From: Diphasiastrum complanatum
Taxonomy: Eukaryota; Streptophyta; Lycopodiopsida; Lycopodiales; Lycopodiaceae
Direction: 5' to 3'
Assembly: GCA_029204225.1 (NCBI GenBank)
Contig: CM055095.1
Span: 37,720,597-37,784,596, forward strand
DNA length: 64,000 nucleotides
Notes under the pieces: model-generated
The model's database searches: none
Seen by the model: the letters and a program-made list of their open reading frames with translations, nothing else
Told to the model about the DNA's origin: nothing
Program-made: the position numbers and the translations under genes
In this document: positions 1 through 50,308 of the stretch, in pieces
Layout: the number at the start of each line of letters is the position of its first letter
How positions within the stretch are numbered: position 1 is the first letter of the stretch

Positions 1-1801
1 CATGAAGAGTGCAAACATGCACATTTTTTAAAGAGATAGGCAGCACAGGCTTCCAGTTTGGATCTGCATATTCTCTAGTAATTCTTGTACCCCTAGTTAC
101 ATCTTTTGCCATTTTCATGCAGTACAAACAAAGGTGTTTTGATGTAGCACCGTGAGAGACATTATACATACATTTCAATGTTTTCAAATCACCTGCTAAG
201 TGCCATTCAACATTGAAGTCTTCAACTCATGGAACGTTGAGAAATCCTCCATCCATATGGTCCTTGATGATCCTAGGATAAGATGTCCTTGAGAATATCC
301 ATGATAATATATCATGATCCTCTTTCAGCACCTGTCCAAAGAATTAATCATACTTAGTTTACAATGTATTAATACTATTCAATGAATGTAATGTAATAAT
401 GAGGCTAGTTACCTAAAACGCTGCAACCACCATATATCATTTTCTGACTGGACATTGAATTTGAAATCTTCTTGGTTCTTTGTTTGGGATAGAGCACCAT
501 TCATGAGAGTTTATATTAACTCTTCCATCTTCTACCCTTTCACAATTTCTGGCTCATCTAACTTAATTACTATGATTATTTTGCCATTCACTTTTTCATA
601 GGCTATATCATAGAATGTGATGATGTATCTCAGCAAGTAATTTAGATCAACAAATAAATCGTTTGATGAATTATAGAATATCGATCTTCCATCAGTTTCA
701 TACACCTCCTCAATATGAAATGGAGTTCCAGTGATCTTATGCATACCTATGTTTAATGTATCCCTCTCTTTCTTCAAGTGATATGTCCTAGGGATTGGGA
801 CTTTTCTAATTTGAACTTGCTTAAAATCTCCTCTAATTAGTTTAAATATTGTTGCATATGCTTCCCTACTAATACTTGCAAAATCACAAGCACCCTGAAC
901 TATAGTCTTATCTAAAATATTTCGAATGTCCACCATCAAAGACTCTGCTATTTTACACTTTACATTTGGAATCCTATTGTTCATCATGATACGCTCAGTG
1001 AGTTTGCAAGTCAATATTGTGCCCAATGACATTCCTAGTGTAGCATTGTCTTTAATATTCCGAGGAGCTACTAATGCAGATCTGCAAAAAAAACAGATAG
1101 TTAACAGAATATCACCATAGCTGAAATTAAATCTAAATGTCATTGAAAAACTTACAAAATTTAGAATATGTTTACTTGAATGCACGGATCCTTCTATTTC
1201 GATAACCTCCTTTTGAAAGCGTTTGAATATCCTTGCAACTTTGTCGCTTTCGCTTCTTACTTTCAGCCTTCTTCTTTACCAAATCCACATCCTTCAGTAA
1301 TTGTAAGTTTTCAATACGAATAGACTGTAAGACTGATTGCATTTGCTCTAGTTCTGATTTGATATTGATTGCTATCTTTTGTAATGATTCATTATTTTTT
1401 TTAAGTTGTTCATTTTCTTCTAACGTCTTTTGGAGATGACAATCTCTATTCTGACAATACGAGGATATCCAAATTAACTCACCTTCTAAAAAGTGACCTT
1501 TATTCATATAGAGTTGTTTTCCATGGTTTTGCAATCTTTCATAATATCCAAGTAATCCACTATGCCCATTGCATATCCATGTAACTAAATGAATTATTGA
1601 AGAGAATGTGGGATGTGTCAAAGTGCTTGGATCTTGTGGATATAATGTTCCATTTGTCCACAAATCCATGTTTTTCTTTCCTTCTGCCCTGTAATGAGAA
1701 CGATCTTCAGCAGATATTTGAACTCCTTTGCCTCCTCTTCTCTGCAAAGGTGCCAAATCAACAGGGATATCCACATGTAGATGATATAATGTCATCATCA
1801 A
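1..1801 (-). pseudogene. Transposase-like gene, copy A (3' end beyond window edge)
   Basis: Reading right to left, the protein has a short N-terminal region (MDLWTNGTLYPQDP), a lysine/glutamate-rich coiled coil (about 1240-1440), a middle domain (KIIIVIKLDEPE near 560-600) and, after an intron near 345-413, a segment with AGDLKTLK, CLYC and NVHVCTLH running off the window at base 1. Acidic residues in that order, a CxxC pair and a late LH motif recall eukaryotic DDE/RNase H-fold transposases, particularly uncharacterised families in animals and plants; this assignment is inference. Copy B at 15993-18345 matches along its whole length and has the same intron position. A TGA stop interrupts the segment before AGDLK, and the intron donor is one base out of phase compared with copy B, so copy A is broken. 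No terminal inverted repeats were found. Confidence 0.6.
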
Positions 1802-2170
1802 AAAAATAATAGAGTAATCAGTTGCATCAAAGTACTATGACCAGATTCTATGAAGCAAAACAAAATACTCATCTTTGATTATATTATATACTATGTACGA
1901 TCAATCCAATCTCCATGCTTGTATGCTTGATTCAAATTTGGAAATGCCGCTCATTTTTTCATTTTTTCCATTCTCGTGGAAGGAATGCATATGTAAACAT
2001 TTTGCAATTTTTCCTGATTCGAATTTGGGGATGGCGGTCATATTCTAGATCCAATGAAAATTTTGCCCTTTTCGTAACCAATGGAGGGAATATTTTTGAA
2101 TTTAGTCAAGTTATACTGCGAACTGTTAACAGTTCTTAACTGTGACTATAGACACTGTGGTTAGATCATT
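1802..2170. other. Spacer between transposase-like gene A and copia fragment
   Basis: No gene seen. Two imperfect copies of a short segment, gattcaaatttggaaatgc near 1930 and gattcgaatttggggatgg near 2016, suggest a small old duplication. Confidence 0.4.
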
Positions 2171-5393: not shown

Positions 5394-6799
5394 ATGTTCA
5401 AGAACTTTTCTGCATTAGTCACTTTATGTGAATTAGTTGTTTTTCTAACAGTTTTAGACCACCTACGACTATTCTATACCATCATGGAGAATGCTAGGAT
5501 TGAGGTTTCAAGACTTCTAGTTGGTATAGAGTTTGAACATCAGATTGATAGGATATTGCCCATCTTCTGTGCCACAATAGATACACTTGCCACCTCCAGA
5601 GCTAACTCAGAAAGTGTGTCATTTGTCATGGATTATATAAATACAACACTTTTTCCGTATAGTGTAAAAGTTTCTGATTCTGATATTGCATGGATTCCAT
5701 ACAACTTACTAACATACATATGGAAGGGTGATAGACAATTTGTAACTAGAATCAAGAGATTTGTGCATAATCATTCTAGAAATCACTATAGAATTCTGAT
5801 AGTTGAGGAGCAGCATAGGGATAATTTGTTGAACATTGGATCAAAGATCATTTCAGGTGAGATGGTCTCTGTGTTCTTTGTTTTTGAGCATACAACTGTT
5901 CCAATGCCTACTGACTCACAGGAGGCCACTTTATGCCATGATGAGCATCCAATAAATGAAGAAGAAGAAAGAGCACTCTCCTTGCAACAATTTTCTGAGT
6001 TGTCTCAACAAACTAGTGATGCAAACAATAGATTGCTGCAAATTAGGAGCCTCTCCAATCATCATTAATGATAGAGACTACATTTTTTATCATGATCTAC
6101 AACATGTTCTCCATCTCCGAGAGGACAAACTACTAAGTGCGCTGCTGAAATTGTAGAATAGAGCCAATATATATGATCACACAGTGATTGATTATACCTT
6201 CTAGAAGTTGTGTCCGACAAATGAGGATGGCACAGGCAAAATGGCATTGGCAAAAATCCTGACAGAGCTTTGAAACGCTGGTCCCTCTTCTGAGGTGACT
6301 CACCAAGATCCAAAAGAGTACGATTTCACTCAACCGGAGGGACAACAAGGAAGCATTAACCTGAGTGACACTACAAAAGCTGATGAGGGGACACATGGCG
6401 CCATTGAAATCGATGCTTACACAGCTAGAGCAATGAGAGTGAGAAAAACCAGGGAGAGTGACTCCAAGGATGTTTCCTTGGTGCACAGGGGACACAGGGC
6501 GCCATTGAAATTGATGCTTACGCAACTAGAGCAATGAGAGTCTGCTTAAGTGCAAATCATTGTGCAAACATATTGCACAGGTGGAGCTAGCAAAAGGATA
6601 TAATAAAACACATTGTATTTTAAGAAGCGTAGTTGTAAATGATCTGAGCTCAAGCTTCGAGTCTAGGCTAGTGATTGGAGCAGCCACTGGCCCATTTTCC
6701 AAAGAATTTGATGCTCATATTATTACATCATAAATTCTTAAGCATACACTACTGTCAAGTGAGAGGAAGGCTATTATGTACCAAAAGCTCAATGAATAA
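5394..6799 (+). pseudogene. Gene X, copy 1 (unknown protein, partner of H3-like gene)
   Basis: Not recognised. An open frame of 224 codons from 5394 is followed, after a frame change near 6045, by a block that matches gene X copy 2 at 49013-50015: PIIINDRDYIFYHDLQHVL against PIIIDGQEYVFMHDLQHIL, then a MALAKILTEL/KALARVLCQL block, AIEIDAYTARAMR/AVEIDDFAMRRGD, and CILRSVVVNDL/CVLRKAILNNL near 6625. Two TAG stops and one TGA interrupt the middle block, and a segment is duplicated (6389-6541). The terminal stop is near 6799. The first 224 residues have no visible counterpart in copy 2 and contain no signal peptide or known motif; the end of that part is glutamine/serine-rich and could form a coiled coil. 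The gene converges on the H3-like gene at 7418-8013. The HDLQHxL block vaguely recalls KilA-N/Bro-N-type DNA-binding modules, but this is a guess. Confidence 0.55.
6389..6541 (+). repeat. Internal direct duplication in gene X copy 1
   Basis: A segment of about 52 bases containing gcgccattgaaat and gatgcttac followed by tagagcaatgagagt occurs at about 6390-6443 and again at about 6485-6541 with few differences, a period of roughly 95 bases. Only one copy of this block (protein IEIDA) is present in gene X copy 2. Confidence 0.7.
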
Positions 6800-6957
6800 A
6801 AAGTCTCTTTGCAATTGTGTGTTTCAAAATTGGTGTTGTGTTCCTATTTGTTCATTATGATTGAAATTATAAAAGCTAATTGCTTATAAAACTAAACTAC
6901 ACAGAAAATCAGTAAAGAGGAAGTCAAGAGGAGTGCGAGATTGGACCCTTTAACATA

Positions 6958-7265
6958 GTCAAAACCAATATTTTCATGCTCCTGCGTGATCACGTAGGAG
7001 CGTGAAAATAATGGTTTTGACTAGGTCAGAGGGTTCAGTCTTGTGCTCCTCTATGATCATGCAGGAGCGCGAAAATAATTGTTTTGACCAGGTTATAGGG
7101 TCCAGTCTTGCGCTACTCCGGGATCACGTAGGAGCGCAAATTTAGGGGTTTTGAGCTGTTCAAAGGGTCCACTCTTGCGCTCCTTCGTGATTACGCAGGA
7201 GCGCAAATATAGGTGTGTTGACCAGGTCAGAGGGCCTACTTTCGCGCTCCTCCATGATCAGCTTA
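6958..7265. repeat. Tandem hairpin array between gene X and the H3-like gene
   Basis: Four full units and one partial unit with spacing of 66-68 bases (unit cores at 6978, 7044, 7112, 7179 and 7246). Each unit has a near-perfect palindrome of the form gctcctgcgtgatcacgtag followed by gagc, then an A/T-rich spacer and a ttttgac-aggtcagaggg block. It fills the gap between two convergent 3' ends. A smaller, related arrangement sits at the same place in the second cassette (48791-48893). Confidence 0.75.
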
Positions 7266-7417: not shown

Positions 7418-8013
7418 CTACAATTTCCTAATTTTCATGGCCAACATTAAGTCACATGGCATGAGTGTCACTCGCTTGGCATATTGGGCACAGAGGTAGG
7501 CATCTTCGAATAGTGTAGTGAGCTGATTCTTAGTAGCCTCCTATAGTGCAGATACAACCTCACTCGTGATCTTGTAGTCTAGAAATTGTCCATAATTTTT
7601 TTGATCACTCTAAAAAATGGTGTTCGAAGAAGCAAGAGATTGGTGTTGTTTTGGTACTCTCTTCCATAAATCTAGGTTGGCATTGGTTGCGTTGCAGCCG
7701 AAGATGCACCACCGGTAGCAGGTTGAGATACAACAGTAGTAGTGGCATTGTCGAGATTAAGAAGATCTTCGACGTCCGTGGGCACTATTCCCACAACCTG
7801 AACCTCAGAGTCTATGAAATTACGAACATCTTCCTTCGTTGGTGTGGGGATCCGAGGTGTAGTTGGAGAGCTCAACATGACACGGGCTGCCATGCGAAGA
7901 TTTCTTAAAATTTCATTGCGCCTGATACTCTGAAGCTGTTGCGCAGTAACCCTGAACCTGTTAGGCGCCCTTGCTGTTTGCTTTGTCCTAGCCATGTGCT
8001 TACTTCTAGCCAT
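7418..8013 (-). pseudogene. Long-tailed histone H3-like gene, copy 1
   Basis: Starts MARSKHMARTKQTAR; residues from the second Met match the first eight residues of mature histone H3 (ARTKQTAR). An alternative start is therefore 7995. A tail of about 100 residues follows, with PTPTKEDVRNFIDSEV and DLLNLDNATTTV, neither known from H3. The end is an H3 histone fold: YQNNTNLLLLRTPFFRVIKK (alpha-N/alpha-1 region), then after a one-base frameshift ITSEVVSAL-stop-EATKNQL and LFEDAYLCAQYAKRVTLMP (alpha-2 and loop 2), ending MKIRKL at a TAG. Canonical H3 has YQKSTELLI, ALQEA and LCAIHAKRVTIMP at these places. Two premature TAG codons; the second replaces the Gln of ALQEA. Total about 190 codons against 136 for H3. 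Broken here, but the pattern of a conserved tail and fold shared with copy 2 shows it derives from a real protein family. Confidence 0.8.
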
Positions 8014-15369: not shown

Positions 15370-15992
15370 CTCATAAGTTCATTAAACCACACAAAATAAT
15401 TTTTGCTACTATTCTTTGATTTGCTCATTTTGCTTTGTAGGCAACTTACATAGAATTATGTCGAGAAAAGAAAAATGCTTATCTTTTGGAGCCATTTGCA
15501 AGAAGAAAATTCCTCCACGACAACAAAATGCAACTGGTATTAGAAAAAGAAAAAGAAGATGGCAAGGAGATATGGATATATTCAATCAGTTGGAAATGTA
15601 TTTTTTCAAAACAAATCACAAATATATAGTACAATGCTATGTTTGTCAATCTATCTCCCTTGATGTATAAATTTGCATGCCTTTCTAAACTTGATGTAGT
15701 TTGTAGATTTTGTTTGATGTCATATTGGTGCTCATCGATAGAATCATTGAAATACCTGAAGGATATATTCGTGTCTACCATTGAGGCCACCATGCTGTGT
15801 GTTTTTGTGAGATGTTGCTCTTGCTTGCCAATGAGATTTTTGCATCCCTTGTGATGACCATATACTCAAACTTCCATGATTTTCTGCTAAGGAGATGGAA
15901 TGGGGTCATAATATGTGCTGCAAAATATCAATCATTTCTATCAAAAGATAAACTTCAAAAAATAAAATAAAATGGTAACTTGATATCTGTTT
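15370..15992. other. Spacer
   Basis: Two overlapping short open frames (15416-15670 plus, 15479-15793 minus) have no recognisable domain. No gene is called. Confidence 0.35.
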
Positions 15993-18345
15993 TTAAATGA
16001 GTACCATGTAATGTGCGACATGATCCGCTCCTCGTGCCACTTTAATTGCATCTACAAACTCAACACAAATTTTTTGGAGCAGTTGCAAGTCATTGTTTGA
16101 AAATATTTCCTTTCGTAACATTTTAACCACATCATCTAATTTTTTCCATACTTCAATTTTCAATACCCTTGTTGATCCTTTCTGCTCAAAATCTTGAGTA
16201 GCAGCTATGATATCTTTCCAAACTAAGTAACACATCTTAGATGGCTTTCCTGAATGGTTTGATAAAAAATTTCATGCCTTTGCTCCGCCAATGCTTGGCT
16301 TGCAAAGTACATTTTCTATTTTTCCCGAAAGCTTAAGGTCCTTTTGTATTTTAACATGTCCTTCTTTAGACAGAACATCTTCTAATCTAGAAATAGCCTC
16401 CTTGGAAGATGATTATAGCTTAGTGTTCCAGGCATTTAACATGTGACAATACACAAGCTTTTCGATTATTCTAACCTCAACATGGAGAGTGCAAATATGT
16501 ACGTTTTGTAGAGGAATTGGCAGAATAGGTTTCCAATTTGGATCCTCTTTGTCTCTTGTTATTCTTGTATTCTTGGTCATGTCATTTGATGATTTCATAC
16601 AATATAAACATGGATTTTTGGCAGTTGCTCCATGGGAAACATTGAACATAAATTTTAAAGTTTTCAAATCACCAGCCAAATGCCACTCTACCTTGAAGTC
16701 TCCTATTTCAGGTACATTGAAAAGTTCCCCATCCATATGCTCTTTGATAGTTATAGAATATGTTCTTTTGCTAAACACCCATGACAAAATGTCATGATCT
16801 TCTTTTAAAACCTAAAAAGTGGATACACAAAAAACTAGTCGATTGATAACAATATCAAATCCAAGTAACATACTTTATTTTTTAGTTTTTAAAATATCAT
16901 ACCCCAACAATATCAAACTCAAGTAACATACTTTAGTTTTTAAAATATCATACCCCAAATGCTGCCAACCACCAGATGTCATTCTCGGAGTGACACTGAA
17001 GTTGAAATCTCTTTGATCGTTTGTCTTTTGAAGAGCTCCATTCATGAGTGTTATACTCACTCTCTCTATTTTTTGTCCTTTAATAAGTTTCGATTCATCC
17101 AACTTCAATACCAGGACTATCTTATTGTCTACCTTTTCTGTGGAAATATCATAGAAATGTATAATAAACCTTAATAACATATTCATAACTACAAACAAGT
17201 TATTTGACTGATTGTAAGACATGGATTTTTTGTCCTTTGATTGATATATTTCCTCGATATGAAATGGAACACCGATAATCTTTTGAATTCCTCTATTAAA
17301 TGTATCACACTCTTGTTTTATTTGAAATGGTCATTGAATAAAAAATTTCTTAATGCTAACCAACATCAAAGCCTCTTTGATAATCTTAAATATGGTGTCA
17401 TAAGCATCTCTGCTTATTCCAACAAAATCATATGCTCCTAGAATTATAGTATTGTCAAGTAATTTTTGTACTTCAATCATTAATGCATCAACAATTTTTA
17501 TCTTAACACGATTGTTTTGATTATTGATCATCAATGACTCAATTGAATTTGTTGTCAACACAGAGCCCAAAAGACTTGCCTATAGTAGCATTGTCTTTCA
17601 CATTTTGATTCTCAACCAATGCAGATTTGTAAAAAAAAAAAAATGATTAATGCTACAATTTACAATCGTGCAAAAACAATATAAGATCTAAACTCGTGAA
17701 GTAAAAAAACGACTGCAAAGGCCAAAAGTCAAAAACTTACTTTAATGCATAAATTCTCCTTTTTGATAGCCTCTTGTTGATGACAAATTATGAATATTTA
17801 TGCTGATCACTCATTTTCGTTTTTTTGTTTTTATCATTTTACCTATCAAGTCAACATCTTTCAATATTTGTGAGTATGCAAAACGACCATTATTCAATTT
17901 AATTTTCATTTGGTCAATGTCTTTTCTTGTACTCACTATGATTTTTTGTAACAATTCACTATTATTCCGAAGATTTTCATTTTCTTTTTGGATAACCTCA
18001 TTCTCTAGCAATTTTATTTGCAAAATATTGTCTTTTTGAGCACAATCTAAAGATATATGTCTAATTACATCCTCTTAACAATGGATTCTTTCCATTGAAA
18101 ATGCATTACCATATTCTTCTATTCTTTTACAATAAACTAGCAAACCATTCTTTCCATGACAGACAAAATATATCAATTGAGCAACTGAAGAAAATTTGGA
18201 ATGTTGCATGGAATATGCAGGATCTTTAGGATATAATGTCCCATCTGTCCAGAGGTCCAGATTTGTTTTCCCGTCAACCCTATAGCAGAAACAATAATCA
18301 ACTGATAAGCAAGATGCTTTGACACCTCTTTTAATCAAAGGAGCA
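15993..18345 (-). pseudogene. Transposase-like gene, copy B
   Basis: Homologue of copy A (1-1801) and more complete at its 3' end. On the minus strand: NLDLWTDGTLYPKDP (about 18250), coiled coil (17811-18023), middle domain (SRDAYDTIFKII; VLVLKLDESKL near 17105), an intron at about 16812-16953, then VLKEDHDILSWVF, AGDLKTLKFM, CLYCMKSSND, NVHICTLHVEVRIIEKLVY and a C-terminal part ending near 15993 (KMCYLVWKDIIAATQDFEQK). The ordered acidic residues, CxxC and LHxExRIxEKL resemble DDE-type transposases with an inserted zinc-binding pair; function is inferred. A frameshift before the intron (FSVTP against the VQSEND of copy A) and stops after NTKL and GGAKA show decay. Its 5' end is fused to copia integrase at about 18345. 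The intron has phase-0 GT-AG borders and contains an internal duplication. Confidence 0.6.
16848..16955 (-). repeat. Tandem duplication inside the intron of transposase-like copy B
   Basis: The stretch containing gtaacatacttta and ttttaaaatatcatacccca occurs twice in a row (about 16850-16906 and 16908-16955). The copy A intron has a single short version. Confidence 0.7.
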
Positions 18346-26711: not shown

Positions 26712-27390
26712 TACGATCTATGTTCCTCCAAACTAATAAGGTTGGTAATTTGACTCAGATCGAGAGCATGAGGACATCATACATAAAAAACACCGAAAAA
26801 AGACTCGAGTATATGTGATTTAGTAGCTCATCCCCATGTGAATGAGAGAAGCTTTGCCCCTTAAATCCACAATTTAGTGTGGGAGTTTGTTTTGAAGAGA
26901 TGGTGGTGTTGTGGGAGTCACACTTTGGATATGAGGAGCTTTTTTCATAGGTCGTTGGTTATATTGAAGAAAAAGATCGAGATTTGAAACCGCCATGCCC
27001 TTGCTTCTCTTTTTCTTCACAAAGGTAATACATAATAATAATAAATCAGCTTTCTCTCGCTTCTATCTTTCCTTGCTTGCTCGCTTGCTCGCTAGCAATG
27101 TGGGAAAAGAGCGATGGTGGCACCAGATGTATTGTCGCTCCCCCATTGACAATGGAAGAACCTGAATAAGTCTGTATTTACAATGAAAGAAGCAGCAAGC
27201 AATAGACATAGTACATGATCGTAGATGGAAAGACAGCAGAGATGATGATCTATTGTTCTATCAATTTTTCATCTCGCAAGTTTAGTTTATTGGCGTGTTG
27301 ATCAGTTAGATCTGCGTTCTTGTCTTAAATCATCTGTTTGAAGGTGTAGCAGCAAGTTTGGAAGCAGCCCATATAGTTATTTCTCTATCC

Positions 27391-33300: not shown

Positions 33301-35656
33301 GGAAGATAATGTTTATGGTAATAGCTTCTGCTCAAACTGGTCTTAAAAAATCTTTTATGAATCTGTAATGATTGTAGTGCGTTTGTAGAAGATCTTGTGT
33401 GGGAAGTTGCCGTGAAGGGAATTATCATTATCACAGTTTACTGTCCTGCTTTGGTTTAACTCCTAAAAGCATATTCTCATATTTTTTCTTGCTTAGCGCA
33501 TACTTCCGAAATTATGAAAGCGATTTTTATAAAGTTGCTACAGAAAAATGCGTTCTAAATACCTGTTTCCTTTTTTTGAACGATATTTAAACAGGTTTTT
33601 ACGACAGCTGCTACAGATGAACATAAAAACATTGTGCTGTTGGCCTTCGAAACTATCGAGAAGATTGTGCGAGAATATTTCACATTTATAACTGAGACAG
33701 AAACTAATACTTTCACTGACTGTGTGAACTGCCTTATCGCATTCACTAATAGCAGATTCAACCAGGACATTTGTCTGAATGCGATAGCGTTTCTTCGATT
33801 TTGTGCACTGAAGTTAGCTGAAGGAGAGCTAGGCTCCTCTGCACACAACAAAGAGAACACAACTAAGATTACCACCAGTATCTCAGCATCTGAAAGACAG
33901 GGTTCCTTGGATATTCCATCTGCTGCTGATAAGGACGACTACTTGCATTTTTGGTTTCCCTTGCTAGCAGGTTTGCACTTGAAAAAGAACTTTTTCACTT
34001 ACTTTTATAAGAAACAGAGTCTGAGTTTCTTTCTTTCACACAGTTCGTTAGATGATATTTAAATTTTTTTACTAGTAAGTTAGTTTGGTTCTTAAATTCG
34101 TATGTCCTTCGCTCAACATAGGTTTGTCAGAGCTGACTTTTGATACTCGACCTGATATTCGAAAAAGTGCATTGGAAGTGTTATCTGACACTTTGCGCTA
34201 CCATGGACATATTTTTCCTCCTGATTTTTGGGAGCGCATATTTGAATCTATTCTCTTCCCGATATTCGAGAATGTGCAAAGGGAAACAGAGTCAGGAGCT
34301 GCTATGCACCCGAGTTTTGATGTGGATGAAGAAGATCAAGTGGAACTAGAGAAGAATAATTGGCTATATGAAACTTGTACAGTGACATTTCAGCTTTTAG
34401 TGGACTTGCTTGTCAAGTTTTATGCAGTCATAAGTTCTCTACTTGAGAGATTTCTATTACTAATGAAAAGTTTTGTGAGAAAACTTCATCAAAGGCTGGC
34501 TTCTGTCGGTGTAGCAGCATTTGTACGGCTAATTAGCAATGCAGGATATATGTTCTCTGAAGGGAGTTGGCACATAGTTCTATCAGCTTTGAAGCAAGTA
34601 ACTACAGAAACGCTCCCAGATTTAGGTCACATTGTGGGGCTGCTGGAGAAATTTCCAATCCGAAGTACTGCAGGGGAACACAACACTACAAGAAGCTTCA
34701 AGCTGAAAGTGGATGAAGTGACAAAAAGGCAGAAAGATGTTGTGGTTCTTTTGTCATTTAAATTTTTTGAAGTGAATTGCCATGTAGCAGTTCAGCTACT
34801 TCTGGTGCAGGCAAGTCTTGTTAGTTCTACGACTACTTAATCTAACACAAATCACAATCCTTGGCTTTTTTTACATGCGTTTTGCAAGTTTCTTGGCTAG
34901 CTAATTGGTTGAACGATTTTGGGCTTCTGAGTTTGAAACTCAATTGACATTTCTTTCAGACCAGAAGTTACACTCATAAGCAGGATGATCTGCATAGTGC
35001 ATCTAAGGGTTCTGGTGTTTCATACATATGTGCAGGCTATTTCTGAAGTTTACAATCTACATGGGGCTTTACTGATATCGGAATCAAATACCATTCTTTT
35101 ACTCGATACACTGCAATTAGTTGCTAGACATGCGTACCACATTAACCTTAATTATTCAATGCGTGAAAAGCTCCAAAAGTTACAGCCATCGATGCAGTTT
35201 CCTGATCCTCCCTTGCTACGCCTAGAGAGTGAATCTTATAATGCATATTTATTGATGCTGCAACAATTACCTGGAGACAAGCCAGGCTTGGCCCAGATGG
35301 GTCTGGTGGAGACTAGACTTGTGGAGCTATGTGAGGAGGTCCTGCAAGTCTACTTGAAAACTTCTGCTCTAGGTCCTGTTAGTGTGGCAGGCCATAAGGA
35401 TAAGCTCTTGCAACCACTTTGGGTGATTCCTTTGGCTTCTGCACGACGGCGAGAGTTAGCTGCAAGGGCTCCATTAGTAGTGGCAACACTTCGAGCAGTT
35501 GGTGGACTAGAAATTTCTTCATTTCAAAGGTATCTTGTCCGTTTCTTTCCATTGCTTGTGAACCTTGTCAGTTGTGAGCATGGATCTGTGGAGGTCCAAC
35601 TAGCACTCAGTAATATGTTTAGCTCTTCTATATGGCCAGTTTTATCGCAAGCTTAA
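27391..35656 (+). CDS. BIG: BIG-type ARF guanine-nucleotide exchange factor (Sec7)
   Basis: Activates ARF GTPases by GDP/GTP exchange to drive coat recruitment in trans-Golgi/endosomal traffic (known for the BIG family). Exons inferred from splice sites and family conservation: 27391-28598, 28830-29147, 29273-29618, 29773-30192, 30586-30881, 30987-31260, 32357-32874, 32996-33317, 33595-33970, 34122-34810, 35036-35656. They total 5388 bases, 1795 residues, in one uninterrupted frame, matching the 1.7-1.8 kDa-scale length (about 1,700-1,800 residues) of plant BIG1-BIG4. N-terminal DCB region: [23 protein letters not shown] box: NYDCD in exon 2. Sec7 domain starts in exon 4 with the glutamic finger in [17 protein letters not shown] and [22 protein letters not shown] regions follow ([26 protein letters not shown]). 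Start at 27391 chosen over 27358 because tccatggcg is a better context and the family starts just before SRLGR. Intron 10 is GC-AG. Confidence 0.93.
31261..32356 (+). other. Intron 6 of the ARF-GEF gene, with internal repeats
   Basis: Much longer (1096 bases) than the other introns, most of which are 105-400 bases. From 31563 to 31720 short related segments (gcgtttgcattgggttgcaa, gtgtttgcactagattgcaa, acttgcaaac, aacgcatttgc) recur, giving a decayed repeat of about 100-bp period. No gene is recognised in it. Borders are gtattt and ttttgcag. Confidence 0.75.
34811..35035 (+). other. GC-AG intron 10 of the ARF-GEF gene
   Basis: The donor is cag|gcaagt, a standard GC-type donor, and the acceptor is atgtgcag. 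Joining LLLVQ to [10 protein letters not shown] keeps the frame and matches the family, so this non-canonical donor is the natural reading. Confidence 0.8.
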
Positions 35657-40080: not shown

Positions 40081-40863
40081 TATAAAAGTTGAAGATTCAT
40101 TTACAATTTACGACATTCATGATCTAGGTTTGCTAAGATACCTTTTTTTATTGGAGCAAGATAGTGAAATTCTTCAATAGTAGAACTCATTATGTCATAT
40201 TTATTGCAAGCACCACTTAGTATTCCTAATTCCAAATTATATTCAACTTTTTGTACAAGCATAGATGTTCTCTTAGTATAAATTTCTATAGTACATTAGT
40301 TGAGCATGTCATCATCTAGCACTAAAATTTCATAACTAAAGATTCATTTCAATTTATTGTTTTTGATGAACTAGGTTAGCCAAAATATCATTTTTATTGA
40401 AACACAATAGTGTTGTTCTTTAGTAGTAAAAATAAACTCAATGAACCTAGTTTGTCAACATATATAATTATCATAAATTTAAGTTTAAAATCCAAGTTTT
40501 GTCAAGAAAAGTTCACAAAGGTATGACAATCCTAATTCGCTAATAACAAGAAAAAAAAATCATTAGGGCCCTTTTTGGACTACAAAAGGGCCTCTTCACT
40601 AATTATAATTAGTGTTTATGATGACACGTGTACCAATAGAATATTGACAACTAAGAGGGAATGGTCCATATGACATAGCAAATTCAATGGTGCAGATTAA
40701 ATCAAGTGTGGGTCCACAAAGTACACCTCTAACATTAACTCCAGATAAAGCGATAACTATGCCTACAAGTTAACATCAACTAGCCTGTCTATCTACTGTG
40801 AAAGTACTATACTTTAGGACCATAAATGGATCTACAAAAGATCCACAAGAGTGATTGGATGTT
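40081..40863. other. Gene-free region
   Basis: AT-rich with no recognisable gene. Two loosely related segments around 40130-40200 and 40370-40430 both mention attgaagaa/attgaaacac and agtgaaattctt-like sequence, suggesting old duplication. Confidence 0.35.
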
Positions 40864-41451
40864 TGCTTAACAATCTATCAAAAAACTAGACACAAAAAAG
40901 CTGATCTAGATTGGCAATTTGACTAGCATTAACAATCAAAAGCATTGATCAACATTGAAATCTATAATATAGGCTGTAGTACGACCTTCAAGCTGAGAAA
41001 CAAGTAGAAATTGATTTGGTTTCATTTGGATCACAAAAACTCAATATACATAGTGAACTAGCTTGAGATTGCCAATGAGCTCCAAAAATATTCTATCTTC
41101 TCAATATGGGAGCTTGGAATACATAGCAAATTCGACTTCCTTCTTGAAGTTAGGGGGATTTCCTGCATGTAATAAGGAATTTAACTCACTCTTCTTGCCC
41201 TAAAATGAAACCCTAGAGTTATGCTTGGTAGGTAGCTAGTTGGTCAAATTTTCACCTTAAACTTAGGTGTAGGTCCTATAAAGTAGGGATGACCACCAAA
41301 TAGTCATGACCAACTCTCTTGACTTGACCTAAACTACATTAGGAGTGGGTTTCCATGTGGCATTTTGGCCTTACATGTGTGAAACCCAATTAAACACAAT
41401 ATTTACAATGTTCTACATGGCTAGATTTGCCAAATTAGGCTATTTTTCACA
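40864..41451 (-). repeat. 3' LTR of the copia element 40864-45217
   Basis: 588 bases. Differs from the 5' LTR by small substitutions and a few short indels, for example near 40920 and 40965-40985. Confidence 0.85.
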
Positions 41452-41928
41452 GTCCTCCTCAAATCTAGCTTTGGAAATAATAATGTATCTATATACAATT
41501 CTTAGACCTGATCTTAACATCAGAAATGAATCATGTTCAGGGTTAGAAGATGACTAATCAGCCCCTAGAGATGATGACATGATCTATCACCATATCCAAG
41601 ATAATGCTTCTTTGATCTTGATCTCCTCCAAGATGAATTGAAGAGTCTTGATTCTTCCTTGCACCTTTGCACTTGATTTCTTCCATGTTGAGTGAAGATG
41701 CATGAACTTGAAACTTGCTCCTCCTTGATCTTGATGCTTCTCTTTGAAGGAAATATGATGTCTCCATGTCTTGTGAAAATCACATTGATCAAGATCACAA
41801 AACATGTACTTGCTAATATTACCAAGATTTATTATGCTAGAATGACTAGTCCACAAACCATCAAAAGTAAGCATGATTTTCCTAATCTTGTAATTACAAG
41901 TGATCTTGAACTTCATGAGGCTACGTAC

Positions 41929-42684
41929 TTACTTATGGAGATAAGTGTCCTTCAAGGATGTTTCACTTATTCTCATAAGAAGTTTACAATTTGCCTCTCC
42001 AAAAGAAAAAACACATTTTTCAAAACAATGAGTGATTAACTCATTCTTGCTCTTCCAAAATCCAAGAGCACTCATTTGATCAAACAACCAATTTACTCTT
42101 AATTGGTTCATAACAATTTTAAGATCACTAAGACATAAAAACTTGTTCTCAAACGAGTCATTACACATCTTATCTTCAACTTCCTTCTTGGTGAAGCCCT
42201 CAAGTTGCCTCATGTAGATCTCATAGCAAAAGGGTTCATCAAGCATTGAAGTTAGAAAAGTGCTGAAAGTGAATGGTTGAGAATCTTCCCCTTGATTACC
42301 TTAGCCAAGATAAGTGAGCCTTGAAGGCTCGTCCTTTGCCTTTGTGGATCTTCTTGGAGCACTTGATCTTTGAGGTGGATCCTCAAGATCTCCATCCCTT
42401 TGTTGCTCCTCCTCAATCCTTGCAAAATCATTGACACCAAGGTTGTTGATCTCACTTTCATTCACACAAGATACTAAATGGATCCAAGCATCTCTTGTCT
42501 AAACATATAAGAATGTTTCATGCATCTTATCACCACTATTTGGTACATGAAAGAAAGAGTGTACATTTGAATGAATGATTTCCTCTTTTGCCATAGCAAT
42601 TTTAGCATCCAACTTAAACAAACTACCTTGTTTAACACCATTTGCTATGCAATTATCATTCTTCAGTATGGAACGAACTCCATG
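41929..42684 (-). pseudogene. Decayed protease end, linker and RT scrap of the copia element
   Basis: Downstream of gag-protease, a minus-strand frame reads KQGSLFKLDAKIAMAKEE (start of GAG-pre-integrase), then jumps to an acidic linker with SAPRRSTKAKDEPSRLTYLG near 42300, matching the linker of the fragment at 3800. The frame at 41929-42246 has DEPFCYEIYMRQLEGFTKKE, where EIYMxQxEGF is an RT motif, and ends in scrambled sequence. The integrase is wholly missing. Confidence 0.65.
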
Positions 42685-43860
42685 CTAGAAGTGAACATGT
42701 AAACCATCATCCATTAGTTGTCCAACACTAAGCAAGCCCTTGGTAATTGATGGTACAAAAAGGACATTGTCTAGATCCATCCTTTTGCTAGATCCTAGAC
42801 TTAATGAGATGGTATCAACACTATCTATCTTACACTCTTGATCATTTTCTAAAGAAAAAAATTTACTAGCACCATTGAAAGAGTGTAAGGTTGAGAATGT
42901 GTCCTTTTGGAAAGTCATGTGGGATCTAGCCCCACTATCAATCCACCAAGTGTCCTTTGAGTTGCTTTTGCTTGTGTGGGTGGATGTAGATATTATCAAA
43001 GATGAGATCTCCTCATCTTCATCCTTCTGATATGCAAGGTTCCCTTGTTTGTCCTCCTCCTCTTTTGCTCTTAGCCTCTTGTAGCATTCGAATGCATAAT
43101 GCCCCTTCTTTCCACAAAAGAAGCATTTTTGCTTTGACTTTTTCTTTGAGCTTGATGCATCATCCTCTTCTTTGGCCTCTTTGGGATGCTTCTTCTTTCC
43201 ATTAGTCTTATTTTTGCCCTTGAATGGGAAATTGGCTTTCTCATCTCCATCCTGCAAAGACAATGAACTCATTCTTGCCTTGGCGTGGAGCATCCTACAT
43301 TCTTCAGCCACTAATACACTATGAAGTTTTTCTATAGTTGGCAAACTATCTTGGATGGCAAAACTTTGGACCAAATTTGCAAAGTCATCTCCTAGACCAT
43401 TAAGGACAATTTGTACAAGCTCTCCATCTTGAATATTCTCTCCAATGGAAGCCAACTCCCTATTTAGAGACTTGATTCTGAGTACATAATCCTGGGCACT
43501 CTCCTCACTTCTCCTCATGCTTTGCAAAATCTGATTTCTAAGCATGAGAACTCTAGAAGTGTTGCTAGATTCATAGATTGATTTTAAAGACTCCCAAGCC
43601 TCTTTACCACTAGTACATGCTGGTACTTCTCTCAACAAATCATTGCTCACATTCATCTTCACACAATGAAGTGCAAGCCTAGATCTCTTCTTGTATCTAG
43701 CTAACTCCTGTGAACTTAGAGGTTCATCTTCATCCTCAATCAAGAACTCATAAAGGTCTTGGAGCACCATGAGTGACTCCATCCTAACCTTCCAAACATC
43801 ATAATTTTTAGAATTCAATCGCTCACTAGCTTCTAGAAGGTATGCTCCAATAGATCCCAT
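42685..43860 (-). CDS. Copia gag-protease polyprotein, intact frame
   Basis: An open frame of 391 codons from MGSIGAYLLEASERLNSKNY at 43860 (the frame is open further upstream to 43905). Residues about 1-190 form the DUF4219/UBN2 gag domain (DVWKVRMESLM, EAWESLKSIYE, LRNQILQSMRRSEESAQDYV). A lysine-rich segment leads to one CCHC knuckle, CFFCGKKGHYAFEC, at about 265. The protease active site WWIDSGARSHM follows at about 310, and the frame ends with LFVPSITKGLLSVGQLMDDG. It is uninterrupted although the rest of pol is deleted. Gag binds and packages RNA, protease cuts the polyprotein. The frame ends just before the point where related elements continue into GAG-pre-integrase. Confidence 0.85.
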   Translation of the reverse strand: MGSIGAYLLEASERLNSKNYDVWKVRMESLMVLQDLYEFLIEDEDEPLSSQELARYKKRSRLALHCVKMNVSNDLLREVPACTSGKEAWESLKSIYESSNTSRVLMLRNQILQSMRRSEESAQDYVLRIKSLNRELASIGENIQDGELVQIVLNGLGDDFANLVQSFAIQDSLPTIEKLHSVLVAEECRMLHAKARMSSLSLQDGDEKANFPFKGKNKTNGKKKHPKEAKEEDDASSSKKKSKQKCFFCGKKGHYAFECYKRLRAKEEEDKQGNLAYQKDEDEEISSLIISTSTHTSKSNSKDTWWIDSGARSHMTFQKDTFSTLHSFNGASKFFSLENDQECKIDSVDTISLSLGSSKRMDLDNVLFVPSITKGLLSVGQLMDDGLHVHF

Positions 43861-43905
43861 CTTACCAATGATTAAGAGATAGATTTGACTGACTTTGAAA
43901 CTCAC

Positions 43906-44610
43906 AAAGGTCTCACACTTGTAGTGTTTTACTCAAATTGGATTTCTAATGCAATAAATGGACTTATAATAACAGTTCTATCACTCTCTCACAAAGCTGG
44001 AATGAAGATAAGATGATGTGAAATCTACTTACAATCAAATCTTGCCATTTTTTCACTCTATTGAGTACTCTTGAAAAAATCAATGAACACAAAGTAGATT
44101 GAACTTCTTGACCCTCCCTAAGTTCTTTTCCAAAATTTTCTCACTAGAAACTTCCTCTCTTTGGACTTCTAGTCACAGTTCTTACACTCCCTCACAAAGA
44201 AGAAATGAAGATTAGATGAGAATCTATCAAAGACTTATCAAATCCTACCAATTTTCACCATATTTGGAGAAAAACATAACTAAATCTCCCACACTCTTTT
44301 TGATGTACTTTCAAGACCTGTAAAACAAGTTTATAGGACCTGATTTCAGCCTAGATTAATTAGATCTCATGATCCTATGTCAAATCTAATCAATGGCCCT
44401 CAATCTTGGTAGCTTATCCTAAGATTTCCACCAAAAATTACATCAAAAGCTCACAAATTGAATTTCTTTGGATCAAATAAATATCATGCATTAAATGCAG
44501 GTTCAGAGGTCCCCAAATGTGTGAAAAGTATAGATTTGGATCCTTACCAATTTTGGGATCAAATCCCCTCACCAAAATCAAGATCCTAGCTCGCCCTCTT
44601 AATACTAGCT
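43906..44610 (-). other. Leader between 5' LTR and gag
   Basis: Untranslated leader of the copia element. It contains the degenerate primer site at about 44595-44610 and two similar segments (tctctcacaaagctggaatgaagataagatga at about 43984 shortened, and ccctcacaaagaagaaatga at about 44190). Confidence 0.6.
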
Positions 44611-45217
44611 TGCTTAACAATCTATCAAAAAACTAGACACAAAAAAGTTGATCTAGATTGGCAAATTGACAAACAACAAGCATTAACAATCAAAAGCATT
44701 GATCAACATTGAAATACGAGCCCACATGTGTGTACTACAGTCTGTAGTACGGCCTTCAAGCTGAGAAACAAGTAGAAATTGATTTGGTTTCATTTGGATC
44801 ACAAAAACTCAATATACATAGTGAACTAGCTTGAGATTGCCAATGAGCTCCAAAAATATTCTATCTTCTCACTATGGGAGCTTGGAATACATAGCAAATT
44901 TGACTTCCTTCTTGAAGTTAGGTGGATTTTCAGCATGTAATAAGGAATTTAACTCACTCTTCTTGCCCTAAAATGAAACCCTAGAGTTATGCTTGGTAGG
45001 TAGCTAGTTGGTCAAATTTTCACCTTAAACTTAGGTGTAGGTCCTATAAAGTAGGGATGACCACCAAATAGACATGACCAACTCTCTTGACTTGACCTAA
45101 CCTACATTAGGAGTGGGTTCCATGTGGCATTTTGGCCTTACATGTGTGGAACCCAATTATATACAATATTACAATGTTCTACATGGCTAGATTTGCCAAA
45201 TTAGGCTATTTTTCACA
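44611..45217 (-). repeat. 5' LTR of the copia element 40864-45217
   Basis: 607 bases, ends tgcttaacaatc and ctatttttcaca on the plus strand. Matches 40864-41451. Confidence 0.85.
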
Positions 45218-45283
45218 TCTACTAGCAACCATATGCTAAGTGAGCTTAGTCCTTATTTCAAATCTTGAATGTTCACAAGTTTG

Positions 45284-45492
<209 letters not shown>

Positions 45493-45596
45493 TCATTTTG
45501 TATACTCAACATTCTTTTTCTTTCATTTCTGTTCAACTTACCTAAAGCTCTCACACACTATTTTGCATATCTTACATTATCATTACATCATAAATT

Positions 45597-46720
45597 ATGG
45601 CCTCCAGTCAATCAAGGAAGCCCAAGAATCAACTGGCTTCCATTGTTGCACACATCAAAGATGCCAATGTCTCATAAATTCTCAACTTTTGACTGGGTTT
45701 ACATGCAACCTCTGGCAAAGGAACTCACAAGGTTGCAAAGAGAAAGCAAAACAACCAAGACTACCATTGGAAATGAAGGATCCACAATTTCAAGATCGAC
45801 CAAAACGACGAATATCTTGCAAAAGTGCAACACATATACATGCGTTGAGATATTTTATTTCGGGATGTGGCTGTTGCTGATAGAACCATATAGTCACATT
45901 GTAAGTCCCACCTCTTTTATTCTTGTGTTAAATATTATGTTTGAATTTTTATTATGACATTGTAATGGATAAGAATGTTGTATGAATGCCGGGTGCAGAT
46001 GTCTTTCCTTCAAATAGCTGGCAAAACGTGAAGTCCTTCACTGGAAAATTCTCTGCCATACACGTCAAATATGGAGAACTGATATATGGTGGGTTGACAT
46101 CCTCTACTCTAATCAAAATGGGCATTTTCGTTTACGATCACATGTACGAAGTTCCAAAAAAAAAAACTTCGGCCAGGGCAAATTAGCACCAATTTCTGAG
46201 CCTACGATCAATTCTCATGAGTGACCATATGTTGACCAGTTGACTATTGAATTAATGAGGAGGCAACTTCTTAAAGAGATTATTGATAATATGAAGCCAA
46301 CATTCGGATCCAAACGAGTCTACACTAGCATCTATGTGCTGATCACTATATTTGTTGCCATATTTAAGGTAGTCCCCTTTAGGATAACATATTTGTTGCA
46401 GGGGATTCAAAGGAAATGGAGACAAAGGAGATTTAATAAGGTGTAAGCTCTCTTGTCAAACAATGACCATAAGGTATCAAACATGCTCCTTAAGTTTCAT
46501 CTATAGGCGATATAAGTTTGCTCATGGCTGATGGGACGCGTTGGACGCTGAGACAAATCAGCAAAAAGTGAAATATCCATACATTTTCTCCATGATGAAA
46601 TACAAGAAGTTCATATCAATAGGGAGTGCAGCCTAGAAGATCTTCGACATATGCTTGGATTGACTTTTGCTGATGTGCCAGCAAATTTGTTTTCACTTGT
46701 AATGGACAAAATGTAAGTCC
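45597..46720 (+). pseudogene. Decayed coding region of unknown type, upstream of H3-like copy 2
   Basis: Starts with ATG at 45597 (MASSQSRKPKNQLASIVAHI) and carries several stops before open frames at 45986-46186 (SNSWQNVKSFTGKFSAIHVK) and 46240-46446 (TIELMRRQLLKEIIDNMKP). Near 46610-46720 another frame reads INRECSLEDLRHMLGLTFAD, which weakly resembles the HDLQHxLGL block of gene X (DGQEYVFMHDLQHILGLQED). No family is recognised. It may be a third, more diverged relative of gene X or an unrelated pseudogene; the similarity is too short to decide. Confidence 0.3.
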
Positions 46721-47226
46721 CTAATTTGCATCAGATTCTTGAATTTCAAATAGTAATGCTGAATACATATAGAAGGATTATTAATTTTGTGTCTGGTTTT
46801 GCAAATACATAGACGAGCCGAAAAAGATCAGATTTGTGTTTCATTTTAACAATCATGGACATTAGGAGTCTAATGGGAATAAAGGATTTTATGTAATGAC
46901 ATATAGAAAGCACAATTAGTTGGTTGTGTTTAGACTCTATTCAAATATGATTGGTTGTGTTTTGACTTTACTCTTGCATTATCACAATTCATATGCCTGT
47001 TAGTACATTCGTGGATGTCTAAGTAAGGTTGAGACAACTTGTTAGGGTTTTAATCGTTTAGTGATATGCATTTTATCAATAATATTGGTTTTCAATCAGG
47101 TTTCTTTGAAGGTCTCTGTTAACTTGCAATTCAGATCTCTACTCATGCGCCAAGACATGAATATACTATATTTGGAATAGAGGCCAAAATATTTATAGGA
47201 TCACTTACTAAAAATAGAACCCTTCA
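46721..47226. other. Spacer upstream of H3-like copy 2
   Basis: No gene recognised; AT-rich, with ttggttgtgtttagac and ttggttgtgttttgac repeated near 46920 and 46952. Confidence 0.4.
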
Positions 47227-47235
47227 CTATATAAG
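47227..47235 (+). promoter_or_regulatory. TATA box of H3-like copy 2
   Basis: ctatataag lies about 114-122 bases upstream of the ATG at 47349. H3-like copy 1 has a TATA box at a very similar distance. Confidence 0.55.
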
Positions 47236-47554
47236 GGTGTTTGGGTCCTCATTTTTCCACTTCATCCCTCGAGTGTTAGAGTGTCAGTTTTCAAAGAGTT
47301 TCCGTTTTCCAGATTTTGTGTTTTTTGATACGTGTTCACGAGGAAGATATGGCACGGACGAAACAAACGGCTAGAGATCCCAGAGTGATTGCATTGCTCC
47401 ATCGGGATGCACTAGCCGCCCTCGATGATAGAGAGAGAAGGGGGAGCAGAAGTAGGAGTAGGAGTCGTAGCCCAAGAGCGATGCAAGATGATTCGACCAC
47501 TTAGCATGAAGCTGAGGAGGAAATGGCCCAACCACTAACAAGACAGCAGGAGGA

Positions 47555-47620
47555 GCAACAACAACAACAGCAACAACAACAACAAGAGCAACCACAACAA
47601 TAGCAACCACAACAACAAAG
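47555..47620 (+). repeat. (CAA/CAG)n polyglutamine tract in the H3-like tail
   Basis: Mostly CAA codons with occasional CAG and GAG; one unit has become TAG (about 47600), which terminates the frame. Confidence 0.8.
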
Positions 47621-47999
47621 AAGCCCTTCCCCGACGCCAACTGAACGGGAAGAAACAATGCAGTTCTTGGACCAAGAGCTTGTGGCATCGGGTGCATTGC
47701 CGATTTTGAATGATTCATTCTTCGACCCATTTTCACTAGCAACGAGCATGGACAGGGTGGACTTGAACATATTGGATGACACCACACCTACCGTGTCACC
47801 CCCAAGTCATGGGCTAGTGATGGGTCCAATGATGTCATTGTTGGTGGGCGATTCTAATGAGGGCACCCCGATTTCACAGACAACAAGGATGAAGCATAAG
47901 GCGACACATAGACGGTCTGGAAGTAGAGCACACAAGCAAAAGAAAAAAAATCCCCGCAAGGTAGGCTCTACACCAAAGAGAAAGAATCTTGTTGCTCCA

Positions 48000-48145
48000 C
48001 TGCCATCACCACCGCCCCCACCGCCAACATTGCCTCCACCTCCACCTCCACCTCCACCTCCACCTCCACCTCCACCTCCACCACCTCCACCACCTCCACC
48101 TCCATCTCCACCTCCACCTCCACCACCTCCACCACCTCCAACTTC
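48000..48145 (+). repeat. (CCACCT)n proline-coding repeat in the H3-like tail
   Basis: Around 20 imperfect CCACCT/CCTCCA hexamers in frame encode a nearly pure proline tract. The opposite strand gives a spurious polyglycine frame. Confidence 0.9.
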
Positions 48146-48790
48146 TGCCATAGCTGGCCCAAGTAGGACCATAGAGTATGAGAGGGGTAGGCCAGTCCCT
48201 CGTGGGACACCTTGGGCTGGAGCTCCATAGGATGCAGCCACCATCTCCTCGATCACGTAGGAAGTGTAGAATTGCAAAGTGGCTGCAAGATTTAAGGAGA
48301 TATCAAAAATCTATTAAATTATTGATACCTAGGGCCCCATTTGTGAGGCTTGTCAAAGAAATAATTGATGAATTTTCCTTGGGGAATAGGGTTATGGCAA
48401 ATGCTGTGTCGGCGATACAAGAGTTTGTGGAATTGTACTTGACACAACTTTTTGAAAACTCATTTTTGTGTGTAGTACGCGGAGAGAGTCACAATAGTCC
48501 TGAAGGATCTCCACCTTGCTAGAAGGTTAAGGAGAGAGCGTAATTGAAAATATGATGTACTGAAGATTTTATCTATAATATACTGAAGATTTTGTGTTAA
48601 GTATATTGAAAATTTTCAGGTAATGTGAATGCAAATTGTTGTGATTGTGTTTAATATCTGATTTCAGGTTTATTTGATTGCAAATTTGAGTAATTCAGTA
48701 CTATCTATGTGAATGGAGTGATTTGAGATTTTTAGTACTATGGGAATGATTGTTTTTTATTATGATTTAGTTAAAGATATTTTTTTTTTT

Positions 48791-48893
48791 GCCTGGGCGT
48801 GAAAATCACGCCAAGGCGCGACCACGACCACTTTGACCTAGTCAAAGTGGCCTATGTTACGCCTTGGCTTGAAAATCACGCCTTGGCGTGATT
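48791..48893. repeat. Palindromic repeats between the H3-like gene and gene X copy 2
   Basis: Two units about 70 bases apart contain gcgtgaaaatcacgcc and gcttgaaaatcacgcc. Between them ccactttgac-cta-gtcaaagtgg is a perfect 10-bp-arm palindrome. Flanked by T runs on both sides. Position, spacing and the ttgacctagtcaaagtggcc block recall the array at 6958-7265. Confidence 0.7.
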
Positions 48894-49442
48894 TTTTTTC
48901 ATTTTTATCAAATATATTTTAAAATTGAATTCTAAATTATAAGAATAATTACATCAAATAATTAAAACAGATAATTAGGAGAGTCGACAAGAAAAACTGA
49001 CAATGTCTTTATTCACATGCAGTTTATTTCCTTTAGAGAAGACTTCAGATTCTCTGATCGCTTTGCTGATGACATTACTGATTTTAGCATATCTAATGCT
49101 AATTTCAAAGCATCACTCTCATTCTCGCGGGTCAATTAAACCTGAGAGAATGATCCAAGTCTCAAATCCAGGACATAAATTATTCAAAATGGCTTTTCGG
49201 AGGACACAGTAAGCCTTTGGCGCTGATGGGGACAACTCTACCTCTCCAACGTGCTTGGAGAGCGCTTTGTATTTAAGAAGCTCCGTTAGTTAATTTGGAC
49301 TGTACTTGTTGCTGAAGCAGAAAATAAAGTTGTTGGGCAAGCTCCCAACGTAGTGGGCCAGAGACTTATCCAGAGTTCCTACTTCAGCTTTTTCTCGAAC
49401 GTCGCCCCTTCGCATAGCAAAGTCATCAATCTCCACTGCGTC

Positions 49443-49534
49443 CTGCATTTGGTTCAAATTATTGCAAAATGAGTATAATGAAGACAAACAAACATAACAA
49501 AAACACACAAGTTGAATTGTTGGGTCAAACTCGC
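49443..49534 (-). other. GC-AG intron in gene X copy 2, absent from copy 1
   Basis: On the minus strand the exon ends DEGTE at gag|gcgagt and resumes gcag|gacgcagtgg as DAVEID. Copy 1 reads DEGTHGAIEID without interruption at 6380-6412, so the alignment is gap-free only if these 92 bases are removed. Confidence 0.6.
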
Positions 49535-50308
49535 CTCAGTCCCTTCATCAATGTCTTCGGTTTGCACAAGCTGAATTCCTTTGCCTTTGTACTCCACATT
49601 GACGTTTTCCTGTCGAGTACCTCGAATGGCCTCATTTGAATTGGTGGTGGCTGAAGTGTCTTCAATTGGCAAAGTACTCTTGCGAGTGCTTTCTGAGTGG
49701 TGTCCGTGTCATGGCCGATCAGCTACTCATACGTGTCGTCGGGCTGGGTGTGGTCGAATGTGGAACTGCCATGCCGCAACTTTACTAATGCTGCCAACAT
49801 CTCATCTTCTTGCAAGCCAAGAATATGTTGCAAATCATGCATGAACACATACTCTTGCCCATCAATGATGATTGGAACAAGCCATGGATACGAAGCATGA
49901 CATCATTGGACTCATCTATATCCTCTGGCTCCGCTGATGTGGATGCACCTCTTGCCACTTGTGCTGCCAAGACTGATTCCTACTCCGAGGATAAATCTTC
50001 CTCTTTAGCCTTCATCTAGGTGCAAGAATGCAAAAAGGCATGACAAGAAGTTCTATAAATTGGAAGGCAGCTTATTTTTTGCGTTAATATTAGATTTGTA
50101 GATCGTAAGCCTATGGTTAACATAGAGAAATGAATGGAATTTTAGTTGACTTGTAAATGGTCTACACACCATATAATCTTGGTAAAAACCATGATAAATT
50201 TTGTTTTAGTCCTATTGCTTTGACATCAATGATCCATATGGTTTCAATCTTATGCCAATGATGTACTGGTCTGTCTTATATGTCTTTTGGCATGGAAAAG
50301 ATGGTAAT

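Follow-up and report, generated by a model that had tools for sequence, protein, structure and literature searches.

A histone H3 relative with a long tail is encoded by a multi-copy DNA transposon of Diphasiastrum complanatum

Few proteins change as slowly as the core histones, which are regarded as a property of the host. The locus described here, from the lycopod Diphasiastrum complanatum, begins like histone H3, ends in an H3 fold and carries a long unrelated tract in between, which raises the question of what such a gene is and whether it belongs to the host at all. The window, i.e. the whole stretch of 64,000 nucleotides that was analysed, lies at C4:37720597-37784596 of a 1.745 Gb assembly and holds two related genes of this kind. 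The one of interest, gene A of copy 2, occupies 47349-48545 on the + strand and consists of two parts:

47349..48227, + strand, ARTKQTAR start and long low-complexity tail of gene A, broken (69% identity over 220 aa to the intact protein of locus L015)
48232..48545, + strand, H3 fold of gene A, in two frames (Pfam Histone, PDB H3)

Translation from 47349 gives MARTKQTARDPRV, followed by SRSRSRSRSP, poly-Q, an acidic and hydrophobic block (REETMQFLDQELVASG) and poly-P. The main part of the H3 fold (48232-48471) stands in a frame different from that of the tail and matches Pfam Histone at 5.9e-16, and the C-terminal end (48476-48545) follows in a third frame at 0.028. The joined fold matches solved H3 structures in the PDB at 4.3e-23 over its residues 18-104. 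This confirmed the anatomy given in an earlier note on this DNA, which had described a MARTKQTAR start, a middle of SR, poly-Q, acidic and poly-P sequence and an H3 fold at the end, with small corrections: the middle had been put at about 300 codons, but about 294 codons precede the fold, and the fold, apart from a short break in its frame, is complete. The copy had also been called broken, and it is: the first frame is interrupted by TAG at codons 52, 85 and 294, and the frame changes both before and inside the H3 fold.

The same start was sought in the whole genome. MARTKQTARDP, the start of type A1, was found at 101 sites, with A1 sites on each of C1-C23, and the backward pattern used as a control at none; these numbers and an unbroken 412-aa protein of the same anatomy at locus L015 exclude chance. 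The L015 frame was checked from ATG to stop and is uninterrupted from MARTKQTAR to RRERN (Pfam Histone 6.7e-29). A wider pattern, MARTKQTAR plus two free codons of which the last base is other than G, gave 499 sites, which can also take in host H3 genes, and no match in the control. In the Pfam Histone search of the genome 150 of 6325 candidates were scored; at least 13 host H3 genes reached about 164 bits, and lower scores went to divergent H3 folds, which were seen on each of C1-C23. At least 23 of the scored folds sit in an open frame of at least 300 residues with a stop-free match, several H3-like types being mixed among them. Tail and fold occur together at several loci. The earlier note had named two observations that would speak against a distinct family, namely a lack of intact frames anywhere and a fusion of tail and fold at this locus only; L015 and the other loci give the opposite result in both cases. 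With many copies and an intact frame in the genome, a lone fusion or pseudogene was rejected. In a protein database none of 410 candidates for long H3-fold proteins reached E 0.001, an absence that says little given the uncertain coverage of plants.

A different subfamily, starting with MARTKQTARLT, is represented by at least 57 sites within 2.7 Mb (C3:18526147-21216286) among the matches listed. In one of its members (L058) a single frame codes for an H3-like protein some 150 residues long. The block is perhaps centromere-like or a locally amplified subfamily.

Membership in a transposon was a point absent from the first interpretation of the locus. Eight regions of about 20 kb and two regions of the window were compared by blastn, which revealed sharp common ends. 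Gene A belongs to a multi-copy DNA transposon of about 8 kb with terminal inverted repeats, a second gene (B) and a transposase of RAG1 fold (gene C). The parts of the element in the window are as follows:

40561..40594, + strand, left terminal inverted repeat (21-mer CATTAGGGCCCTTTTTGGACT; same left end in the C156, C8 and C6 copies)
40561..40797, + strand, left end segment of the element (blastn to the C156, C8 and C6 copies)
40798..45216, no strand, later LTR-retrotransposon insertion that splits the element and is not part of it (homology gap)
45217..50005, + strand, rest of the element (blastn to C8, C6, C5, C3 and C4157; ends at 50005, where those copies continue)
48791..48895, no strand, GC-rich inverted repeats lying where the 3' ends of genes A and B converge (similar array at 6911-7245, copy 1)
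49128..49973, - strand, gene B remnant, convergent with gene A (tblastn with protein B of the C5 copy, 66-75% identity over 49457-49973)

The terminal inverted repeats are 34 bp long, with CATTAGGGCCCTTTTTGGACTCAAAAAGGGCCTC at the left end and its reverse complement at the right. The whole genome holds 1657 such ends when up to 2 mismatches are allowed, and none was found with the control. Of five end pairs read directly, one lies 1.1 kb apart and the others 7.4-11.4 kb, and the 20-kb regions supplied two further copies with both ends (C6, and C8 with an internal deletion). Such repeats at both ends, present many times in the genome, make this a TIR DNA transposon. The flanking bases of the 7 end pairs showed AAT/AAT, TC/TC and CA/CA in three cases and at most one shared base in four, so that a 5-bp target-site duplication was found in none of the 7 and no consistent duplication length among them. 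This definition of the element covers the copy 2 type, as distinct from the A3 loci and the LT/LS and VH/GH types of H3-like gene.

In the window, CATTAGGGCCCTTTTTGGACT has one match with up to 3 mismatches (0 of 100 shuffles). Since the homology to the element breaks at 40797 and resumes at 45217 while other copies are continuous, the intervening segment was taken as an insertion; it carries direct repeats (40863-41264 and 44610-45032) and, by eye, a gag-like ORF (42685-43932). The right part of the element, with the transposase gene, is missing after 50005. The gene under study, H3-like and decayed, belongs to one old copy of the element. A more complete copy of 8.1 kb (L057) shows, from left to right, an ORF at 984-1841, an internally deleted gene A, gene B and gene C, with B and C on the opposite strand, and the order A, B, C recurs in the C6 copy. 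A remnant of the extra left ORF lies near 45900-46715 of the window and has a weak PB1-domain match (0.0051, below cut-off).

Gene A faces a homologous gene B in copy 1 as well, where the arrangement belongs to a sister family:

7424..7995, - strand, gene A of copy 1, a broken member of a sister family with the start ARTKQTARAP..., an H3 fold and a shorter tail (homology to copy 2)
5484..6733, + strand, gene B of copy 1, convergent with gene A (tblastn 2.2e-33, 2.2e-13)

The two B genes of the window match each other by tblastn at 49875-49648 (1.4e-14) and 49280-49128 (9e-8), and gene A of copy 1, read from 7995 to 7424 on the minus strand, follows the plan of copy 2 with a shorter tail. Both tails share a stretch of the form PTPT-EE...FLDxEL..G.LP with a local score of 58 against a shuffle mean of 29.5; none of 2000 shuffles reached the score, nor did any of 2000 when the intact L015 tail was compared with that of copy 1. 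The resemblance was weaker to another tail of the copy 1 type (C13), where the score was reached by 5 of 2000 shuffles with the window copy and by 219 of 2000 with L015. Two diverged families, that of copy 2 and that of copy 1, have the A-B pair. Ends of the copy 1 family were looked for and not found.

Several smaller features accompany these pairs. In both copies the GC-rich palindromic repeats (6911-7245 and 48791-48895), with TTTGACC.AGTCAAA-like cores, separate the 3' ends of A and B. Beyond gene B in copy 1, a start MARAKQMSK of a further H3-like gene was seen at 4842 (minus strand), where no fold was found, and the C13 region (L042:2063-2914) holds in the same position a further H3-like gene with ARAKQTTR and no ATG right before it. 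In this gene type the tail follows the fold. The copy 1 family may thus have two H3-like genes flanking B. Copy 1 also has a second, upstream start at 7995-8013 (minus strand), MARSKHMARTKQTAR, with the counterpart MTRHKHMARTKQTAR in C13, so a free ARTKQTAR end hinges there on the choice of start.

Gene C is represented in the window by two remnants outside the copy 2 element:

15735..18287, - strand, gene C (RAG1-fold transposase) remnant of a related element (tblastn 9.5e-64, 1.2e-70)
2..1834, - strand, second gene C remnant, running off the window (tblastn 8.8e-36, 4.4e-16)

The structural model of gene C (pLDDT 81.8) has the fold of RAG1/Transib-type transposases with an RNase H core; when the top 1000 chains from Foldseek were gone through a second time, ranks 1-31 were RAG1 and BbRAGL, followed by Transib, P element and Hermes. 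The sequence itself has no detectable similarity to RAG1: a profile of 41 sequences searched against the PDB found no RAG1 at E 10. As regards a DDE triad and a CxxC/HxxH zinc site, D113, C133 and C136 are invariant in the 41 rows. We take D18 to be a candidate first D and place a candidate E in the next exon, both by eye against RAG1. The search for relatives returned 68 sequences (P0002-P0069) with values to 3.5e-102. Their identity is up to 50%, and they lie on database contigs of up to 20 kb. Gene C would move the element by cut and paste. For gene B, none of 1567 candidates in a protein database reached E 0.01, which again says little because plant coverage is uncertain; a PHD or kelch partner of the RAG2L type gave no Pfam match above the cut-off in gene B pieces, and the model of B, with a pLDDT of 34, was too poor for use.

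Some viruses carry histone genes, and pieces of genes B and C matched no Pfam family above the cut-off, both of which would fit a relic of an integrated large DNA virus. This origin was rejected and is regarded as highly improbable, since viral contigs yielded no relative of the A fold, the B piece or the C alignment (single-protein scans that reach close relatives only); the precise inverted-repeat ends and the RAG1-type transposase fold point to a transposon, and one pair of ends, read at its ends, lies just 1.1 kb apart.

The relation of gene A to host histones was examined in an H3 phylogeny, as the earlier note had proposed. The H3-like folds formed three clades, A1 (96/95), A2 (100/99) and A3 (96/93), all outside the group of host H3 and CENH3 (97/92), in a tree of 14 rows, two of them CENH3, in which A3_C13 is a long branch. 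The claim of a distinct H3-like family that keeps the reader-binding end of H3 and adds a long tail is borne out by this position, the many copies, the intact 412-aa frame and the low dN/dS described below; the identity of gene A as a transposon-encoded H3 is well supported.

With the host replication H3 it shares the fold, at 47-53% core identity in four A1 rows, and identical residues 1-8, and it differs in that residues 9-37 are absent or unrelated, about 270 residues are inserted, K9 is lacking and the gene is carried by a transposon. To plant CENH3 it is alike in its divergent tail and in P63 and A65 of the fold; it differs in keeping ARTKQTAR, in an H3-length loop 1 and in its place outside the H3 and CENH3 group. 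These two residues and the dense block at C3:18.5-21.2 Mb, perhaps a centromere, could favour a host family of centromeric or germline H3 variants whose genes were multiplied by surrounding repeats. Such an origin is distinctly improbable, as the gene sits within an inverted-repeat unit with a transposase, A1 sites are spread over every one of C1-C23 and host H3 and CENH3 group together without it. Moreover, the best-listed PDB matches of A1, A3 and A2 were H3, with no CENP-A among the matches listed, and neither A1 nor A2 has the longer loop 1 of the CENH3 type.

Selection on gene A was estimated by comparing the window copy with other rows, frameshifted copies being projected onto the L015 frame. 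The H3 fold gave dS 0.74, dN 0.106 and dN/dS 0.145 (20 rows), the tail 0.33 (18 rows) and gene B 0.28 (16 rows); some copies enter as two rows, one row (L018) is from the sister family and the pairs are not independent. Among young copies dN/dS was 0.5-0.9, as expected from decay after insertion. The low ratio between the old window copy and the others indicates that gene A evolved as a protein and was constrained while the lineage moved. Plant DNA transposons often carry gene fragments, many listed copies are short or broken, and of the 17 divergent loci L014-L030, 16 are broken, partial or of another type, L015 being the intact one; a cellular H3 captured once in the manner of Pack-type elements, of no use to the element, could look like this. 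It is unlikely and already disfavoured by the low dN/dS between old and young copies, by the A-B pair in two diverged families, by three supported H3-fold clades and by hundreds of ARTKQTAR starts.

The damage in the copies has a pattern of its own. Pairwise C/T differences among eight copies amount to 18.4% at CG (1147/6236), 15.8% at CHG (1145/7243) and 4.5% at CHH (1574/34922), and 12 of 17 in-frame stops in 14 copies read TAG where L015 has CAG. This fits the trace expected from CG and CHG methylation, and the host seems to fight the element. A change of H113 to Y was considered as a family mark and rejected as decay, the single-frame copies having H113.

The pattern of kept and lost H3 residues bears on what the protein might do. 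Residues 1-8 are ARTKQTAR in A1 loci (one change each in L014 and L025) and in A2 loci, whereas A3, without the exact octapeptide, keeps R2 and K4 with the rest variable: DRRKQTRR or near it at A3 loci, ARAKQTTR (C13) and ARAKQMSK (window) in the A3-type genes beside B. Residue 9 is K in 13 of 13 host H3 genes; A1 has D or G there, A2 has A, E and once K (L063), and A3 has D, A or T. K9 is absent from 99 of the 100 ARTKQTAR sites listed out of 499, a count in which the pattern demands ARTKQTAR and 57 sites come from one clustered subfamily, and also from the fetched A1 and A3 loci. Six of these 100 sites were examined: in five an H3 fold follows, interrupted by stops or breaks in several of them, and in one it does not. 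The family lacks the short tail of H3 with K9, K14, K27 and K36; A1 loci have about 300 residues before the fold. Within the fold, the single-frame A1-A3 rows keep H113, R116, L126 and R129 of the H3-H3' bundle in 7 of 7 and D123 in 6 of 7.

H3K9me2 feeds CHG DNA methylation in plants, the two being coupled. A tentative reading, held at somewhat under even probability, is that gene A encodes an accessory H3 of the transposon, an anti-silencing nucleosome component with the K4 end and no K9. The product would pair with H4 and enter nucleosomes of the element or otherwise bind chromatin. Displaying the H3K4 end without K9, it would make nucleosomes that could be read and methylated at K4 and would bear no H3K9me2; the K9 methylation loop would get no substrate, and the long tail may serve as a recruiting or activating arm. 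In favour of this reading stand the family with its copies and defined ends, the gene order A, B, C, the RAG1 fold, the low dN/dS, the tail motif common to both families, the missing K9, the conserved bundle residues and the methylation-like damage. A nucleosomal role is opposed by R63 and R49, DNA-contacting residues in H3 for which each of the seven single-frame A1-A3 rows has another residue, and by K56, which is R in three A3 rows. A loss specific to K9 is opposed by the general loss of similarity after residue 8, which K9 shares, and by the A2-type L063 with its K9. As young copies are decaying and look methylated, any anti-silencing would be imperfect.

The residues of H3 bound by most readers are 1-8. 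A1, A2 and two or more further fold types retain them, and the tails diverge right after residue 8, which suits the main rival: the ARTKQTAR end as a decoy or tether that would draw in host proteins reading H3K4 (PHD proteins, ORC1, chromatin modifiers) for the element or its transposase, the fold serving only to dimerise outside nucleosomes. It also suits the finding that RAG2L, the partner in animal RAG transposons, usually has a PHD finger and that sea-urchin RAG2L binds methylated H3K4 (PMC7204232). A decoy would not need the H3-H3' bundle residues that are kept as well, Pfam finds no PHD in pieces of B or C, and A3 lacks the exact octapeptide; this reading is possible but doubtful. The anti-silencing reading, extended to a RAG1-fold plant transposon lineage whose own K9-less H3 would sit in element nucleosomes, block the H3K9me2-CHG loop and offer its K4 end to activating readers, a selfish histone, is likewise put forward with considerable reserve.

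No counterpart of a transposon-encoded H3 was found in the literature searched, partly by title and abstract and with subscription papers and preprints outside its scope. The nearest known systems are RAG-like transposons (PMC7204232) and the VANC anti-silencing proteins (PMC10398659, PMC5735166). Compared with the RAG1L-RAG2L and Transib transposons described in PMC7204232, the plant element is without the 5-bp target duplication and has other inverted repeats; a partner with kelch or PHD was not found, and in place of a histone reader it carries a histone. VANDAL elements of Arabidopsis are likewise plant DNA transposons with an accessory protein countering silencing, an activity reported there and proposed here; VANC proteins are sequence-specific (PMC10398659, PMC5735166), whereas the accessory gene here is a histone.

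If the anti-silencing reading is true, mobile DNA would have a new weapon in its conflict with silencing: a transposon family that encodes an H3 and diversifies it under selection. Such a family would also be a natural experiment, showing which residues of H3 are enough for reading (1-8) and which ones silencing requires (K9). A plant genome would moreover hold a RAG1-fold transposase next to a gene linked to the H3K4 end that is read by animal RAG2, in contrast with animals, where RAG elements carry a reader of that same end.

Elsewhere in the window, exons that identify the DNA as that of a land plant, those of a BIG-type (SEC7) ARF exchange factor and apparently intact by eye, were seen at 27310-35656.
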